A stretch of DNA of 64,000 bases. Origin: Desulfovibrio mangrovi. Lineage in GTDB: Bacteria > Desulfobacterota > Desulfovibrionia > Desulfovibrionales > Desulfovibrionaceae. Both the position numbers and the translations under genes were made by a program. How positions within the stretch are numbered: the first letter of the stretch is position 1; each line of letters opens with the position of its first letter. The stretch lies in contig NZ_CP104208.1 of the NCBI RefSeq assembly GCF_026230175.1, positions 1,736,001 through 1,800,000 of the forward strand, written 5' to 3'. Of the stretch, positions 10,903-51,429 are shown one piece after another. The notes under the pieces are model-generated. The model worked only from the letters and a program-made list of their open reading frames with translations. It did no database searches and was not told the DNA's origin.

Positions 10903-12606
10903 TTACATAGTACTCAGCGCCAGATTATCCGCACGCCGCATGGCGTTTTTGAGATCGCCCAGCACATTGCCTTCACCAAAACGATTCAGGGTACCCAGCT
11001 TGCCGAGCACGCTGGCAACGCGCTCCTGCAGTCCGCACACAACCAGCTTGATGTTCATCCGGTTCGCATGAACGATGAAGGTTTCAAGAGCATGAATGGC
11101 TGTGGCATCAATTGTCGGCACGTTATCCATGCGGATGACGATAACCTTGGGCGATTCCCGCAACGTGTGCAGCACGCCGAGAAAACGCTCCGCGACCCCG
11201 AAGAAGAAGGGCCCCTCAATCTCATAGATCATGACGGAAGAGGGGCAGAAGGCACTGCCCTCACAGGCGATCTTCGACTCGTTGGAAAGCCCCTCGGCCT
11301 CCGCACTTCCGGCACTGCCCAATCGCAGGTTGCCCACCTCGCTCATGCGGCGCATGAAAAGCAACGCGGCGAGCACCACGCCCACCTGCACAGCTACGGT
11401 CAGGTCCACCAGAACAGTCAGCAGGAAAGTCGTTACCAGCACGAATACGTCAGAACGGGGGGCACGGAGCAGACGAGCAAACTTATGCGCCTCGCTCATG
11501 TCCCACGCAACGATACACAGAACGCCCGCAAGGCTTGCCAAAGGAATAAGTGAAGCCAACGGAGCCAGGCAGATCATGAACAGAGCCAACGTAATGGCAT
11601 GAATGACACCGGCAACGGGAGACGCAGCCCCAGCACGAATATTGGTTGCAGTACGCGCTATGGCACCGGTTGCGGGAATACCGCCAAACAGGCCTGAGGC
11701 CACGTTGGCGATGCCCTGCGCCACAAGTTCCGTAGAGGGTTCATGCCGCTCGCCGGTCATACCGTCCGCCACCACCGCGCTGAGCAGGGACTCGATGCCG
11801 GCAAGCAGGGCAATGGCAACGGCATCAGGCAGCATCTTTGCGGCGAGACCGAAGAAATCCTCGGGCATGGCGAAAGAAGGCAGCGTTGCCGGAATACCGC
11901 CAAAGCGGGAACCGATGGTTTCCACCTCCAATCCCCCCAGCCAGACAACCAGCATGGATGTGGTAATCCCGACAATGTGTGCGGGTATCCGCGGACAAAA
12001 ACGACGGATGAGCAACATGGCAAAGATGGTCACACCGCCGGCAATGGCAGCTCCGTGCTGCATGGTGCCTATCCCTGTCCAGCAGGATGCCAGTTTGCCC
12101 AGAAATTCCGGAGGCTGTGCGCCAATCTGGAGCCCGAGCAGGTCTTTGATCTGCGAAGAAAAGATGTACAGGCCGATCCCGGCCGTAAACCCTGTTGTTA
12201 CAGGATAGGGGATAAACTGCAGCACTTTGCCGAGTTTGAAGAACCCCATCAGCATAAGAAATACGCCAGCCATAAGCGTGGCAACCACAAGGCCTTCATA
12301 ACCGTGCCGCGCAATAACGCCAGCCACGATCACGACGAAAGCACCGGTGGGGCCGCCTATCTGAAAACGGGAGCCTCCGAGCAGCGAGATGAGAGCCCCG
12401 GCAACAATGGCCGTGAACAAGCCGCGCTCCGGCGGCGCACCGGAAGCAATGGCAAAGGCCATGGCAAGCGGCAGTGCGACGACGCCCACCGTCAGACCGG
12501 CGCAGACGTCTCGCGTTAAATATGGTAGGGGGTAACCTGCCTTCAGGACGGAAAGCAGGGCAGGCCTGATCTTAAACGAGAACAGGCCGGAACGCTGATC
12601 ACTCAT
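10903..12606 (-). CDS. SulP/SLC26-family anion transporter with STAS domain
   Basis: 567-residue inner-membrane transporter. The N-terminal half has about 10-12 hydrophobic segments with the SulP signature (DVCAGLTVGVVALPLAMAFA, GLFTAIVAGALISLLGGSR, GGPTGAFVVIVAG). A cytoplasmic STAS domain occupies about residues 440-560. The family includes sulfate, bicarbonate and dicarboxylate carriers; in a probable sulfate reducer sulfate is a natural guess, but no residue seen here decides it. GGAGG lies 5 bases before the ATG. Monocistronic by layout. Confidence 0.85.
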   Translation of the reverse strand: MSDQRSGLFSFKIRPALLSVLKAGYPLPYLTRDVCAGLTVGVVALPLAMAFAIASGAPPERGLFTAIVAGALISLLGGSRFQIGGPTGAFVVIVAGVIARHGYEGLVVATLMAGVFLMLMGFFKLGKVLQFIPYPVTTGFTAGIGLYIFSSQIKDLLGLQIGAQPPEFLGKLASCWTGIGTMQHGAAIAGGVTIFAMLLIRRFCPRIPAHIVGITTSMLVVWLGGLEVETIGSRFGGIPATLPSFAMPEDFFGLAAKMLPDAVAIALLAGIESLLSAVVADGMTGERHEPSTELVAQGIANVASGLFGGIPATGAIARTATNIRAGAASPVAGVIHAITLALFMICLAPLASLIPLASLAGVLCIVAWDMSEAHKFARLLRAPRSDVFVLVTTFLLTVLVDLTVAVQVGVVLAALLFMRRMSEVGNLRLGSAGSAEAEGLSNESKIACEGSAFCPSSVMIYEIEGPFFFGVAERFLGVLHTLRESPKVIVIRMDNVPTIDATAIHALETFIVHANRMNIKLVVCGLQERVASVLGKLGTLNRFGEGNVLGDLKNAMRRADNLALSTM

Positions 12607-12937
12607 GGTAACCTCCGAATAGAATCCTTGCGAACAAGGCTCTGAACGGCATGGTCACGGTCCGGCAGCGGCTTAAGTGTGTCGGGCCGCCCATACCCGC
12701 AAAGACACAAGGCCGCTGGAGGCGGCCATTTCTTGAGCGGGTTGTCGTCAGGGCTGTCGTATAAAGTACTCACTAACCCCCCATAAAGACAGTTGCAACA
12801 CCTTTTTTTAAGAGTAAAACTCACACAAAACAACGTAACATGGCAACTTTAAAGATATACCCCTCCCCCAGCCTTAAACACCATGACAATAGTGCAGGAG
12901 ACATGAATCAAACTTTACGGAAAATGAAGCATTGTGC
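12607..12937. other. Intergenic region upstream of the SulP gene
   Basis: About 330 bp without a credible gene. A 76-codon minus-strand ORF here overlaps the expected SulP promoter and shows no family features. A small hairpin, GGCCGC-TGGAG-GCGGCC, is at 12711-12727. The AT-rich part around 12760-12900 probably holds the SulP promoter, but no clear consensus is seen. Confidence 0.4.
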
Positions 12938-12965
12938 TTGACACCCGAAAACGAACTGTTATTCT
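12938..12965 (+). promoter_or_regulatory. Candidate sigma-70 promoter upstream of the structured RNA
   Basis: TTGACA at 12938-12943 is a perfect -35, followed after 16 bp by TATTCT at 12960-12965 as a -10. Transcription would start near 12972, where the first helix of the structured segment begins. Confidence 0.55.
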
Positions 12966-12971
12966 GATTTT

Positions 12972-13108
12972 AAGGTTAGGAAACGTCCTAGTGAAACCTT
13001 CAGCCAACATCTAACGCAGTTTGTAGGCTTAAGGCCCTGGCCAGAATTAAACACCGATACCAATTCTGAACCGGGATCTCCGCGCAAGCGGAGGTCCCGT
13101 TCTTCATT
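12972..13108 (+). ncRNA. Candidate structured small RNA or leader upstream of uppS
   Basis: The segment directly after a candidate promoter can fold into successive helices: AAGGTT (12972-12977) with AACCTT (12995-13000) enclosing AGGA-AACG-TCCT (12978-12989); AGCCAACA (13002-13009) with TGTAGGCT (13022-13029), one A-A mismatch; CAGAATT (13042-13048) with AATTCTG (13062-13068); and a 12-bp terminator stem at 13072-13099. It contains no ORF with a ribosome binding site and does not match riboswitch or housekeeping RNA motifs I know. It could be a free RNA of about 135 nt or an attenuator of uppS. Confidence 0.5.
13072..13108 (+). terminator. Rho-independent terminator before uppS
   Basis: A 12-bp stem (one G-T wobble) from CGGGATCTCCGC to GCGGAGGTCCCG, capped by a GCAA tetraloop, is followed by TTCTTCATT. 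It lies about 150 bp before the uppS start, so it would stop upstream transcription or attenuate uppS. Confidence 0.75.
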
Positions 13109-13250
13109 CCCCCCTGAGCAATCCCTCAACCCCCGCAAATCTTACTCCATTCTTCCCCCGCTTTTGTTCCGCCTTGACGCCCCAGAACAAACGAACTATC
13201 ATAAAAAGTTCGCAAATTTGGATTTTTACTTCAATATCAAGAGGTTGCAG

Positions 13251-13991
13251 TTGAGCACGGACAAACGGCCCGACTGGGTCGCCCCAGAACATCTGCCCGC
13301 GCACGTATCTATCATCATGGATGGTAATGGCCGCTGGGCCAAAGCCAGAGGGCTTGAACGCACGGCAGGACATCGCGAAGGCACGGAAACGGCCCGCAAA
13401 ATCGTCCGCGAAGCCCGCTCCATAGGCATCCGTCATTTGACCCTGTACACTTTTTCCAGCGAAAACTGGGCTCGCCCCAAGCAGGAAGTGGGCTTTCTGT
13501 TTGAACTGCTGGTTTCCTTTCTCAAGGATGAACTGCCCAGCCTGATGGAACAGAATATCCGTCTGCTGGTTCTTGGCGACATCGGCGCATTGCCGCTTCC
13601 TGCGCGCACCGCTCTGCAGCATGCCATGAAAAAAACCGCCGGTAATACCGCCATGACACTGAACCTTGCACTCAACTACTCCGGACGCGGCGAAATCGTC
13701 CGGGCAGTGCGCGCCATCATGGAAAGCGGAATTGCCGCCAAGGACATTACCGAACAGAGCATCTCCGACTATCTGTATACATCCGGTCAGCCAGACCCCG
13801 ACCTGATGATACGCACCAGCGGCGAGTTGCGTCTCTCAAACTTCCTGCTCTACCAGCACGCGTACAGCGAATTCCATTTCACCCAGACCTATTGGCCCGA
13901 TTTCAGCGTGGATGAATTCCGCTCCGCGCTTACCGCATACGCCAACCGCGAACGGCGGTTCGGCAAGACCGGAGACCAGATCAAGGCATGA
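13251..13991 (+). CDS. uppS: Undecaprenyl (polyprenyl) diphosphate synthase
   Basis: 246-residue cis-prenyltransferase that elongates farnesyl diphosphate to the C55 carrier for cell-wall synthesis. IIMDGNGRWAKARG, HREG, FSSENWARP and RTSGELRLSNFLLYQ are all conserved family motifs. The start is a TTG: AAGAGG ends 6 bases before it, and the length fits the family. An in-frame ATG at 13164 would add 29 untypical AT-rich residues and has no ribosome binding site. First gene of the run through tsaB, with the cdsA start overlapping its stop. Confidence 0.92.
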   Translation: MSTDKRPDWVAPEHLPAHVSIIMDGNGRWAKARGLERTAGHREGTETARKIVREARSIGIRHLTLYTFSSENWARPKQEVGFLFELLVSFLKDELPSLMEQNIRLLVLGDIGALPLPARTALQHAMKKTAGNTAMTLNLALNYSGRGEIVRAVRAIMESGIAAKDITEQSISDYLYTSGQPDPDLMIRTSGELRLSNFLLYQHAYSEFHFTQTYWPDFSVDEFRSALTAYANRERRFGKTGDQIKA

Positions 13992-48396: not shown

Positions 48397-51300
48397 ATGT
48401 CAGTCTCACGCAGACAATTCCTCAAGCTCACGGCCGGAGCGGCCACCGCCAGCGCGTTTGGCGGACTCGGCTTGAGTCTCTCCCCCACCGTGGCACAGGC
48501 GCAGTTGCTGAAGCTGCACTGGGCCAAACAGACCACCTCCGTGTGCTGTTACTGTGCCGTCGGCTGCGGCCTTATCGTGCACACCGCCAAAGACGGACAG
48601 GGCCGGGCCATCAACGTTGAAGGCGATCCGGACCATCCGATCAACGAAGGCGCTCTCTGTGCCAAGGGCGCATCCATCTGGCAGCTCGCAGAAAACGACC
48701 GCCGTCCCGCAACCCCCATGTATCGCGCTCCCTACAGCAATGAATGGAAGCCCGTATCGTGGGAATGGGCCTACGAACAGATCGCAAAGCGCGTAAAGCA
48801 GACCCGCGACGAATCTTTCCAACTGAAAAACGAGAAGGGTGAAGCAGTCAACCGCACCGAGGCAATCGCCTCCGTCGGCTCCGCCGCAATGGATAACGAG
48901 GAATGCTGGATTTACCAGAGCTTCCTCAGATCACTCGGCCTGGTGTTCATAGAACATCAGGCGCGGATTTGACACAGCGCAACTGTAGCGGCTCTGGCAG
49001 AGTCGTTCGGACGCGGTGCGATGACCAACCACTGGATCGACCTCAAGAACAGTGATTGCATTCTGATAATGGGCAGCAACGCTGCCGAAAACCACCCCAT
49101 TTCCTTCAAATGGGTGCTGAAGGCCAAGGACAAGGGCGCAACCCTTATCCATGTGGACCCCCGCTTCACGCGTACTTCGGCCAAGTGCGACATGTACGCC
49201 CCCATCCGCTCCGGTGCGGACATTCCGTTCCTCGGCGGCATGATCAAGTACATTCTCGACAACGAGATGTACTTCAAGGACTACATCGTCAACTACACCA
49301 ACGCCGGCTTCATCGTCGGCAAGGACTACAAGTTCAAGAACGGTCTGTTCTCCGGATTCGACCCCAAGAAGGGCTCCTACGACAAGACGAAATGGAACTT
49401 CGAACTGGATGAGAACGGCGTACCCAAGCGTGACGTCACACTGAAGAATCCGCGTTGCGTCTTCAACCTGATGAAGGAGCACTACAAGCGTTACACGGTG
49501 GACAAGGTTTCCTCCATCACCGGTACGCCCAAGGAAGACATCCTGAAGGTCTACAAGGCATTCGCCGCCACGGGCAAGAAGGACAAGTCCGGTACCATCA
49601 TGTATGCCATGGGCTGGACCCAGCATACCGTGGGCGTGCAGAACATCCGCGCCATGTCTATGATCCAGCTTCTGCTTGGCAACATCGGCGTGGCGGGCGG
49701 CGGCGTGAACGCACTGCGCGGCGAATCCAACGTGCAGGGTTCCACCGACCAGTGTCTGCTCGTGCACATCATCCCCGGCTACATGGCCACCCCCAGTTCC
49801 AAGTGGCCCACCCTTGTGGAATACAACAAGGGCAACACCCCGGCTTCCAAAGATCCCATGTCCGCAAACTGGTGGGGCAACAAGCCCAAGTACATCGCCA
49901 GCCTTCTCAAGGCCATGTACCCCGGCGCCACACTTGAAGACGGCTACAACTGGATGCCCAAGCTGGACGGCCACAAGCCCATGACCAACTACTACTGGCT
50001 GTCGCTCTTCGACAAGATGTCCCACGGCCAGTTCAAGGGCTTCTTCGCATGGGGGCAGAACCCCGCCTGCGGTGGCGCCAACGCCAACAAGACTCGCGAA
50101 GCCATGGGCAAGCTGGACTGGATGGTGAACGTAAACATCTTCGACAACGAAACCGCTTCGTTCTGGAAGGGTCCCAACATGGAACCCGGCAAGATCAAGA
50201 CGGAAGTATTCTTCCTGCCCTGCGCGGTTTCCATTGAAAAAGAAGGTTCCGTCACCAACTCGGGCCGCTGGATGCAATGGCGTTACGCAGGTCCCAAGCC
50301 CTTTGCCGCAACCAAGCCCGACGGCGACATCATCCTTGAGCTGATGGAAAAGATCCGTGAACTCTACCGCATGGAAGGCGGCACTTTCCCCTTCCCCATC
50401 ACCGGCCTGAACACCGGCGACTGGCAGAACGACCACGGTCATTTCGATCCGCACAAGGTAGCCAAGCTCATCAACGGCTACTTCCTGAAGGACAAAGAAA
50501 TCAAGGGCAAGCTCTACAAGAAGGGCGAGCAGGTTCCCAGCTTCGCCTTCCTGCAGGACGACGGCTCCACCTGTTCCGGCAACTGGCTCTACTGCGGTTC
50601 CTACACGGAAAAGGGCAACATGGCCGCCCGCCGCGACAAGACGCAGACCGCCGAACAGGAAAAGGTTGGCCTCTATCCCAACTGGGCATGGTGCTGGCCG
50701 GTAAACCGCCGCATTCTGTACAACAGAGCCTCTGTTGACCCCAAGGGCGTACCCTACGCACCAGAAAAGGCCGTCATCAGCTGGAAGGACGGCAAGTGGA
50801 TAGGCGACGTGCCGGACGGCGGCTGGGACCCGGGCACCAAGCATCCCTTCATCATGCAGAAGCATGGCTACGGCCAGATATTCGGCCCCGGCCGTCAGGA
50901 AGGCCCCTTCCCCGAGCACTACGAGCCGCTTGAGTGCCCCGTGCTGGAGAACCCCTTCTCACCGCAGCTGCATAACCCCACCGCGTTCAAGGTCGCAGGT
51001 GAAGACCGCGCAGTATGTGACCCGCGCTTCCCGTTCGTCGGCACCACCTACCGCGTGACCGAACACTGGCAGACCGGTCTCATGACCCGCTTCCAAGACT
51101 GGCTCATTGAAGCGGAACCCCAGCTCTTCTGTGAAATCAGCGAAGAACTGGCCGCCCTGCGCGGCATTGAAAACGGCGAGCACGTCAAGGTCTCCAGCCT
51201 GCGCGGCGAGCTCGACTGCGTAGCCATCGTGACCAAGCGTATCAGACCCTTCAAGGTGCTTGGCAACGAAATACACATGGTCGGTCTGCCCTGGCATTAC

Positions 51301-51429
51301 GGCTGGGTAACCCCCAAGAACGGCGGAGATTCCGCCAACCTCCTCACTCCCTCCGTGGGCGACCCGAACACCGGTATTCCGGAGACCAAGGCGTTCATGG
51401 TTGACGTGAGAAAAAAGCAGGGAGCGTAA
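48397..51429 (+). CDS. fdhA: Periplasmic formate dehydrogenase catalytic subunit, selenocysteine-containing
   Basis: 1010 codons including one in-frame TGA (48970-48972, residue 192), read as selenocysteine. The sequence around it (EHQARI-U-HSATVAAL) is the classic FDH site where Cys or Sec ligates Mo/W. Residues 4-10 SRRQFLK are a Tat signal. The [4Fe-4S] ligands are Cys50, Cys53, Cys57 and Cys88. AAGGAGG precedes the ATG by 5 bases. The enzyme oxidises formate (or reduces CO2) in the periplasm and passes electrons to FdhB and then cytochromes. Annotation as two genes or a pseudogene would be wrong. Confidence 0.95.
48970..49020 (+). promoter_or_regulatory. Selenocysteine codon and candidate SECIS region in fdhA
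   Basis: The TGA is followed by a short potential hairpin: CTGT and GGCAG-like arms around AGCGGCTCTG about 15-30 bases downstream, with a GGCU-containing apical loop like bacterial SECIS elements recognised by SelB. The exact fold was judged by eye only. The conserved protein context on both sides makes Sec reading near certain. Confidence 0.6.

Follow-up and report, generated by a model that had tools for sequence, protein, structure and literature searches.

A probable small RNA gene beside a SulP-type transporter gene in four related species of a Halodesulfovibrio-like genus

6S RNA is a free-standing small RNA with a promoter of its own. Trans-acting small RNAs of the DsrA–rpoS type open a hidden ribosome-binding site, and DsrA depends on Hfq. 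RNAs that titrate CsrA, those of the CsrB/RsmZ type, carry many GGA sites in loops. From the Desulfovibrio group, a small RNA has been described in Desulfovibrio vulgaris, Dv_sRNA2, which is expressed on tiling arrays and is the target of the response regulator DVU0679, lying downstream of the gene for that regulator (PMC3333781). The main text of a study of another species, O. alaskensis G20, has no occurrence of 'uppS' or 'undecaprenyl' (PMC11124144), and a limited literature search found no earlier description of the small RNA that we report here.

The stretch of DNA analysed, hereafter the window, is 64 kb long and belongs to the 3.95-Mb genome of Desulfovibrio mangrovi (G000:C1:1736001-1800000). 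We label this genome G000, and the three other genomes of the genus that bear the RNA are labelled G003, G004 and G006. Like 6S RNA, the RNA appears to have a free-standing small RNA gene with its own promoter; however, the 6S RNA match of this genome (RF00013, 87.1 bits) lies at another place, and 6S RNA is absent among the matches of the small RNA site at E up to 5. Compared by description only, Dv_sRNA2 is likewise a small RNA of the Desulfovibrio group, but it is set apart by its link to DVU0679 and its location. The pairing that we propose below, with an arm that hides a Shine-Dalgarno sequence, recalls DsrA and rpoS. In contrast to that system, a search with PF17209 detected in G000 none of the Hfq that an Hfq-dependent small RNA would need (0 matches; 5 of 14 control genomes match), and release of the site is unsupported by fold predictions. 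With Rfam 15 at the gathering threshold, a search of the window gave no match, and all matches of the small RNA at relaxed thresholds score below gathering. The top one, BjrC68 (RF02353, a small RNA of Bradyrhizobiaceae), reaches 23 bits vs a gathering score of 39; it is similar in having a GCAA-looped hairpin followed by a pyrimidine tail, but the structured portion of this match corresponds to the terminator, and only the window copy of the four orthologues matches. No tRNA or tmRNA was found in the window either. The first-pass annotation had not matched the RNA to SRP, 6S, tmRNA, RNase P or the common riboswitches. Elsewhere in the window (48397-51429, + strand), a TGA at 48970 links two frames in phase, and the larger part matches molybdopterin oxidoreductase; this resembles a selenocysteine-containing formate dehydrogenase.

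Judged by its sequence, the locus has what marks a free-standing bacterial small RNA gene, namely its own promoter, an intrinsic terminator and conserved non-coding sequence (Table 1), and we consider it very likely that it is a real, independent one. A sigma-70-type promoter would give rise to a transcript of about 138 nt that ends at the intrinsic terminator. The promoter named in the first-pass annotation is borne out: TTGACA (from 12938) and TATTCT (ending at 12965) stand 16 nt apart, with an extended -10 TG and no mismatch to the pattern TTGACA-N13-TGNTATNNT. When up to one mismatch is allowed, it is the sole fitting site in the 64-kb window, compared with 0.15 ± 0.44 sites in shuffles (at least one in 13 of 100), for a pattern composed after the promoter site had been seen. 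CTTGAC and the first conserved RNA base are 33 nt apart in all four species. Loose consensus scans over 2.5 kb returned 3 promoter-like sites vs 1.0 ± 0.9 in shuffles and 6 terminator-like sites vs 2.8 ± 2.0, which by themselves are weak evidence for either element. The 12-bp hairpin terminator is also upheld. Taken alone, it has z-scores of -6.05 (window), -5.32 (G006), -3.86 (G003) and -4.14 (G004), and in each case none of 300 shuffles is as stable; the T tract in its T-rich tail, GUUCUUCAUU, is interrupted. Its GNRA cap is present as described in the window genome (GCAA), whereas the other three species have ACCA, AUGG and ACAU. The reported lack of an ORF extends to the relatives, as no frame of at least 5 codons is common to the four species; the only such frames, 7 codons in the window and 16 codons in G003, are unshared.

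Table 1. Features of the small RNA locus and its neighbours (positions in the window)
Feature	Position	Strand	Details and basis
SulP-type transporter gene (sulfate permease family + STAS domain)	10903..12606	-	PF00916 284.4 bits, PF01740 54 bits
SulP structured leader, Shine-Dalgarno predicted paired; candidate target AGCCUUG 12635-12641	12608..12658	-	Fold, alignment
Sigma-70-type promoter of small RNA	12938..12965	+	TTGACA, 16 nt, TATTCT, extended TG
Predicted small RNA, ~138 nt	12970..13108	+	CM R1 match; 5' end inferred from -10 box
Block A, UyAAGrUUAGGAAACG (window, G006, G004; G003 ends AAGCA)	12970..12985	+	Alignments; proposed SulP-leader pairing region
Block B, AACCwUCAGCCAAC	12995..13008	+	Alignment
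Block C, GUUUGyAGGCU-NNN-GGCCCUGGCC	13019..13042	+	Alignment
Intrinsic-terminator-like hairpin, 12 bp, GCAA loop, tail GUUCUUCAUU	13072..13108	+	Consensus scan, shuffles, pair changes
Separate uppS promoter, TTGACG-17-TATCAT, downstream of terminator	13174..13202	+	Box scan, ten genomes
uppS	13251..13991	+	PF01255 278.6 bits; candidate in-frame TTG starts 13251 or 13245

The several nested helices that the first-pass annotation placed before the terminator could not be substantiated. The entire stretch does fold better than its shuffles (z of -3.4), but this signal sits in the terminator and not in the 5' domain. Folded alone, the 5' domain has z-scores of -0.95, -1.83, -0.38 and +0.23 in the window, G006, G003 and G004, with 45, 14, 107 and 168 of 300 shuffles, respectively, being as stable. 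The covariation check gave a divided answer as well. In the 5' domain, the predicted helices 1 and 2 comprise 17 pairs, 13 of them invariant and 4 broken in one sequence each, and no compensatory change is seen at any of the 17 in a comparison of four sequences that has little power. In the terminator helix, by contrast, every cell with letters is paired in the four species; of its 15 pairs, 10 are invariant, 4 show a one-sided change and 1 a change of both partners, and the terminator is the sole part of the RNA with compensatory change. The invariance of the 5' domain, together with the lack of covariation among these four sequences, points to a constraint at the sequence level, such as a pairing partner or a protein, and the domain appears to be conserved in sequence rather than in structure. 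Two other elements were rejected: a hairpin, AAGGUU/AACCUU, is hardly formed in any of the four species, and a long-range helix, GGUUAGG/CCUGGCC, is predicted in three of the four without compensatory change in its support. At the settings used, no inverted repeats were found.

At the level of sequence, blocks A, B and C are nearly invariant in the four species. Pairwise identity, with gaps counted, amounts to 0.71-0.80 in the 5' domain, 0.70-0.92 in the terminator, 0.42-0.62 in the linker and 0.52-0.64 in the promoter. The 150 nt upstream reach 0.17-0.39, the spacer to uppS reaches 0.21-0.62 and the coding DNA of uppS 0.73-0.78. The 5' half is conserved to about the same degree as uppS coding DNA and the flanks are conserved less, while the linker inside the RNA is poorly conserved, no better than the spacer to uppS. 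The contrast between the 5' domain and the flanks shrinks when gaps are omitted (5' domain 0.75-0.89, terminator 0.79-0.92, upstream 0.37-0.52, spacer 0.45-0.64, uppS coding 0.73-0.78).

Conservation in relatives, which had been suggested as a check, was found in part of the genus: 4 of the 10 genus genomes have a homologue at the same place, with the divergent SulP gene on one side and uppS on the other, and in these the unit of promoter, RNA and terminator is kept. With Rfam matches all below gathering, the earlier suggestion of a new small RNA is supported at the level of sequence. CM R1, which was built from the four RNA-bearing sequences themselves, scores 152.5 bits in the window, 150.3 in G006, 141.3 in G003 and 133.6 in G004. 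In a BLAST search of 99 genomes, own genome included, strong matches were confined to the own and the three same-genus genomes (E of 3e-17 in G003, 5e-12 in G004 and 8e-35 in G006); 53 of the 99 had some match at E ≤ 1, those beyond the four being short with a best E of 0.017. The 5' model R2 matched 4 of the 10 genus genomes strongly and two more at E above 1. Among 288 family genomes, R1 matched 18 genomes at E ≤ 0.05, of which 4 are the true ones (E ≤ 1.5e-27). Twelve of the 14 weak ones were examined (L084 and L089 are not among the twelve); they resemble terminators or unrelated sequence and lack the 5' blocks. Further weak matches of R1 within G003 and G004 were discarded too, as L074, L075 and L076 look like terminators and L077 overlaps L076 on the opposite strand. 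Among 348 order genomes, R2 recovered the same 4 and L120/L121, where mostly the promoter part is matched. In an even draw of 395 phylum genomes it recovered the own genome and L182/L183; the per-genome E of the latter two, 0.003-0.005, is about chance level over 395 genomes, and blocks B and C are absent from them. G003, G004 and G006 were presumably outside this draw, because they are absent from its matches. The exact pattern of block C occurs in 5 stretches of genome contigs, one of them on the contig of G003; neither the other 4 nor 2 viral stretches have an R1 match. Since filters were strict and only 9-11 candidates were scored per genome in the large searches, a diverged homologue could be missed. 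As far as searched, the RNA appears to be lineage-restricted, present in four related species of one Halodesulfovibrio-like genus. As a separate observation, L086 and L087, from two genomes of genus g8, have weak R1 matches at ~1501-1624 and form a related-looking intergenic pair ending in a terminator; possibly, this is another small RNA, distinct from the SulP-adjoining one.

The SulP gene is the divergent neighbour of the RNA in all four RNA-bearing species. Where the RNA is missing, in six genomes, uppS stands behind frr. In G002, the 82 codons that precede the uppS gap match ribosome recycling factor; in the remaining five genomes, the sequence before the gap finishes with the same peptide-coding motif. 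The gap between frr and uppS in these six is 169-299 nt long and contains, by eye, a terminator and an uppS promoter, with no R1 match; SulP is on a different contig from uppS in these draft genomes. The region corresponding to 12600-13300 (L036-L041) has been rearranged within the genus, with uppS beside SulP in four genomes and behind frr in six. Relative to the window, uppS (query from 13248, a CAG codon) is 78-85% identical in the RNA-bearing relatives vs 66-69% in the six without the RNA, and SulP is 85-91% identical vs 57-59%. A uppS tree, computed for the 10 genus genomes with 2 outgroups, places the six RNA-less genomes together (100/100), and the grouping of the four RNA-bearing genomes as a clade is unsupported (44/74). 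The RNA may have been gained in the four or lost in the six.

Most likely, the RNA represents its own gene rather than a uppS leader, because of the SulP/uppS setting, the separate uppS promoter box and the varying gap between the terminator and uppS. A leader attenuating the cell-envelope operon had been the second suggestion of the first-pass annotation; in such a riboswitch-like attenuator, the 5' domain would sense and the hairpin would end transcription before uppS. The RNA indeed lies on the same strand as uppS and 140 nt upstream of it in the window, its sequence is conserved as in an aptamer followed by a terminator, and the interrupted T tract would make partial read-through possible. 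A leader would, however, be expected at a fixed place and to have no separate uppS promoter next to it. Between the terminator and the point where the uppS match begins there are 140 nt in the window, 146 in G006, 145 in G003 and 297 in G004. Of the 10 genus genomes, 9 have a clear uppS promoter box (TTGAC-17/18-TAT), among them all 6 that lack the RNA; the box of G004 is weak and ties with another. Furthermore, no gap-free pairing of at least 6 bp between the RNA 5' domain and the uppS start region is conserved in the four species, the terminator stem is paired in all four, and no covarying antiterminator was noticed in the course of these analyses. As an energetic target, uppS ranks 33, 127, 60, 31 and 61 of 145 with the five block queries. 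The attenuator seems to us quite improbable.

We find it very improbable that there is no RNA gene at all and that the conserved stretch is a DNA control region of the divergent SulP gene and uppS, with the promoter and the hairpin being incidental. The site does lie between two divergent genes, the small RNA transcript is a prediction, and the poor conservation of the linker would suit a DNA element, but strong conservation starts at the predicted RNA start and ends with the terminator and its tail, the outside stretches are less conserved, and the terminator keeps its pairs through changes. That the RNA works through a bound protein, such as CsrA titrated via GGA motifs, is in our estimation unlikely. 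CsrA is present in the genome, AGGA of block A is invariant in the four species, and conservation of sequence rather than structure suits a protein site. However, instead of the many GGA motifs in loops that would characterize a CsrA-titrating RNA, there are only 3, 2, 2 and 3 in the window, G006, G003 and G004, and outside the terminator there is just one in each, with a second in G004.

An independent small RNA of this kind would act in trans, its conserved sequence blocks either base-pairing or binding a protein, and would do so without canonical Hfq. We lean slightly towards the joint reading of a small RNA gene and trans action; on whether the RNA acts specifically by pairing in trans, our judgement is evenly balanced. 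A candidate partner is the leader of the divergent SulP gene. This leader is conserved in the four species, and its Shine-Dalgarno sequence is predicted to be paired, with an unpaired probability of ~0.01 except for one bulged base (0.79-1.0). Eighteen consensus pairs are kept in all four species, 1 having changed on both sides and 3 on one side. The leader may itself be a candidate cis-regulatory RNA of the SulP transporter gene; a search of ten SulP leader loci found no Rfam match above gathering. The leaders of the four RNA-bearing species (window 12604-12700, - strand) have a hairpin over the Shine-Dalgarno sequence with pair-preserving changes, and single-sequence folds predict a different-looking hairpin over it in the six others. 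By eye, CGGACCG is found just before the leader hairpin in both groups.

In the proposed mechanism, the 5' end of the RNA (UCAAGGUUAGGAA) would pair within the SulP mRNA leader, at the 5' arm of the hairpin concealing the Shine-Dalgarno sequence, and pairing at this arm would change SulP translation. The pairing was spotted by eye first and tested afterwards, so that the tests are post hoc. When the 5' domain is compared with the SulP start region, block A with AGCCUUG is the only gap-free duplex of at least 6 bp conserved in the four species. In G004, the RNA has a G to A change that disrupts a helix predicted for the RNA itself, and the leader has the matching change, C to U; the leader change needs no second partner, because the leader's own pair is kept (C-G to U-G). 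When columns were permuted, a run of at least 7 arose in 76 of 1000 cases and such a run with a compensatory pair in 8 of 1000. Of 145 genes with start regions from three species, 35 show a conserved run of at least 7, and in 3 genes, SulP included, such a run has a compensatory pair.

The duplex energy of each species' own RNA and leader is -11.1 to -14.2 kcal/mol, whereas the RNAs of the other three species reach only -4.1 to -5.0 kcal/mol with the G004 leader, and the G004 RNA reaches -8.4 to -8.6 kcal/mol with the leaders of the other species. Opening the leader site is estimated to cost 5.2-10.8 kcal/mol, which makes the predicted energetics of the pairing marginal. Fold predictions in which the leader site was held open did not clearly release the Shine-Dalgarno sequence, and co-folding of the RNA with the SulP leader did not choose the block A/AGCCUUG site. 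Blocks A, B, C1, C2 and C were also screened against the 145 gene starts of three species, a control that represents about a tenth of the three genomes, with start codons picked by a script and gene names assigned by eye. SulP ranks 4 of 145 in energy for block A and 95, 75, 54 and 19 for the four remaining queries. As good a rank as that of block A was obtained with 14 of 200 shuffled blocks, and in G004 the best block A duplex lies elsewhere than the SulP site. The top target of C2 (obgE by eye) was dismissed, its match being a palindromic terminator-like hairpin before the gene. We regard SulP as a tentative target, with the chances rather against it. Doubtful, and more so, is the full account in which a lineage-restricted RNA, in a sulfate reducer where no Hfq was detected, controls the divergent SulP gene via the leader arm that masks the Shine-Dalgarno sequence and co-evolves with this leader, as G-C to A-U in one species would reflect.

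Taken as a whole, the sequence data suggest a small RNA gene ordinary in kind, without an Rfam entry, found in few related species and with one specific lead, SulP. If expressed, it would be a small RNA absent from Rfam 15 that four species of sulfate reducers carry next to a gene of the sulfate permease family. With no Hfq detected in the genome, it would also, if expressed, provide a small case, open to testing, of the possible use of regulatory RNA by such bacteria.
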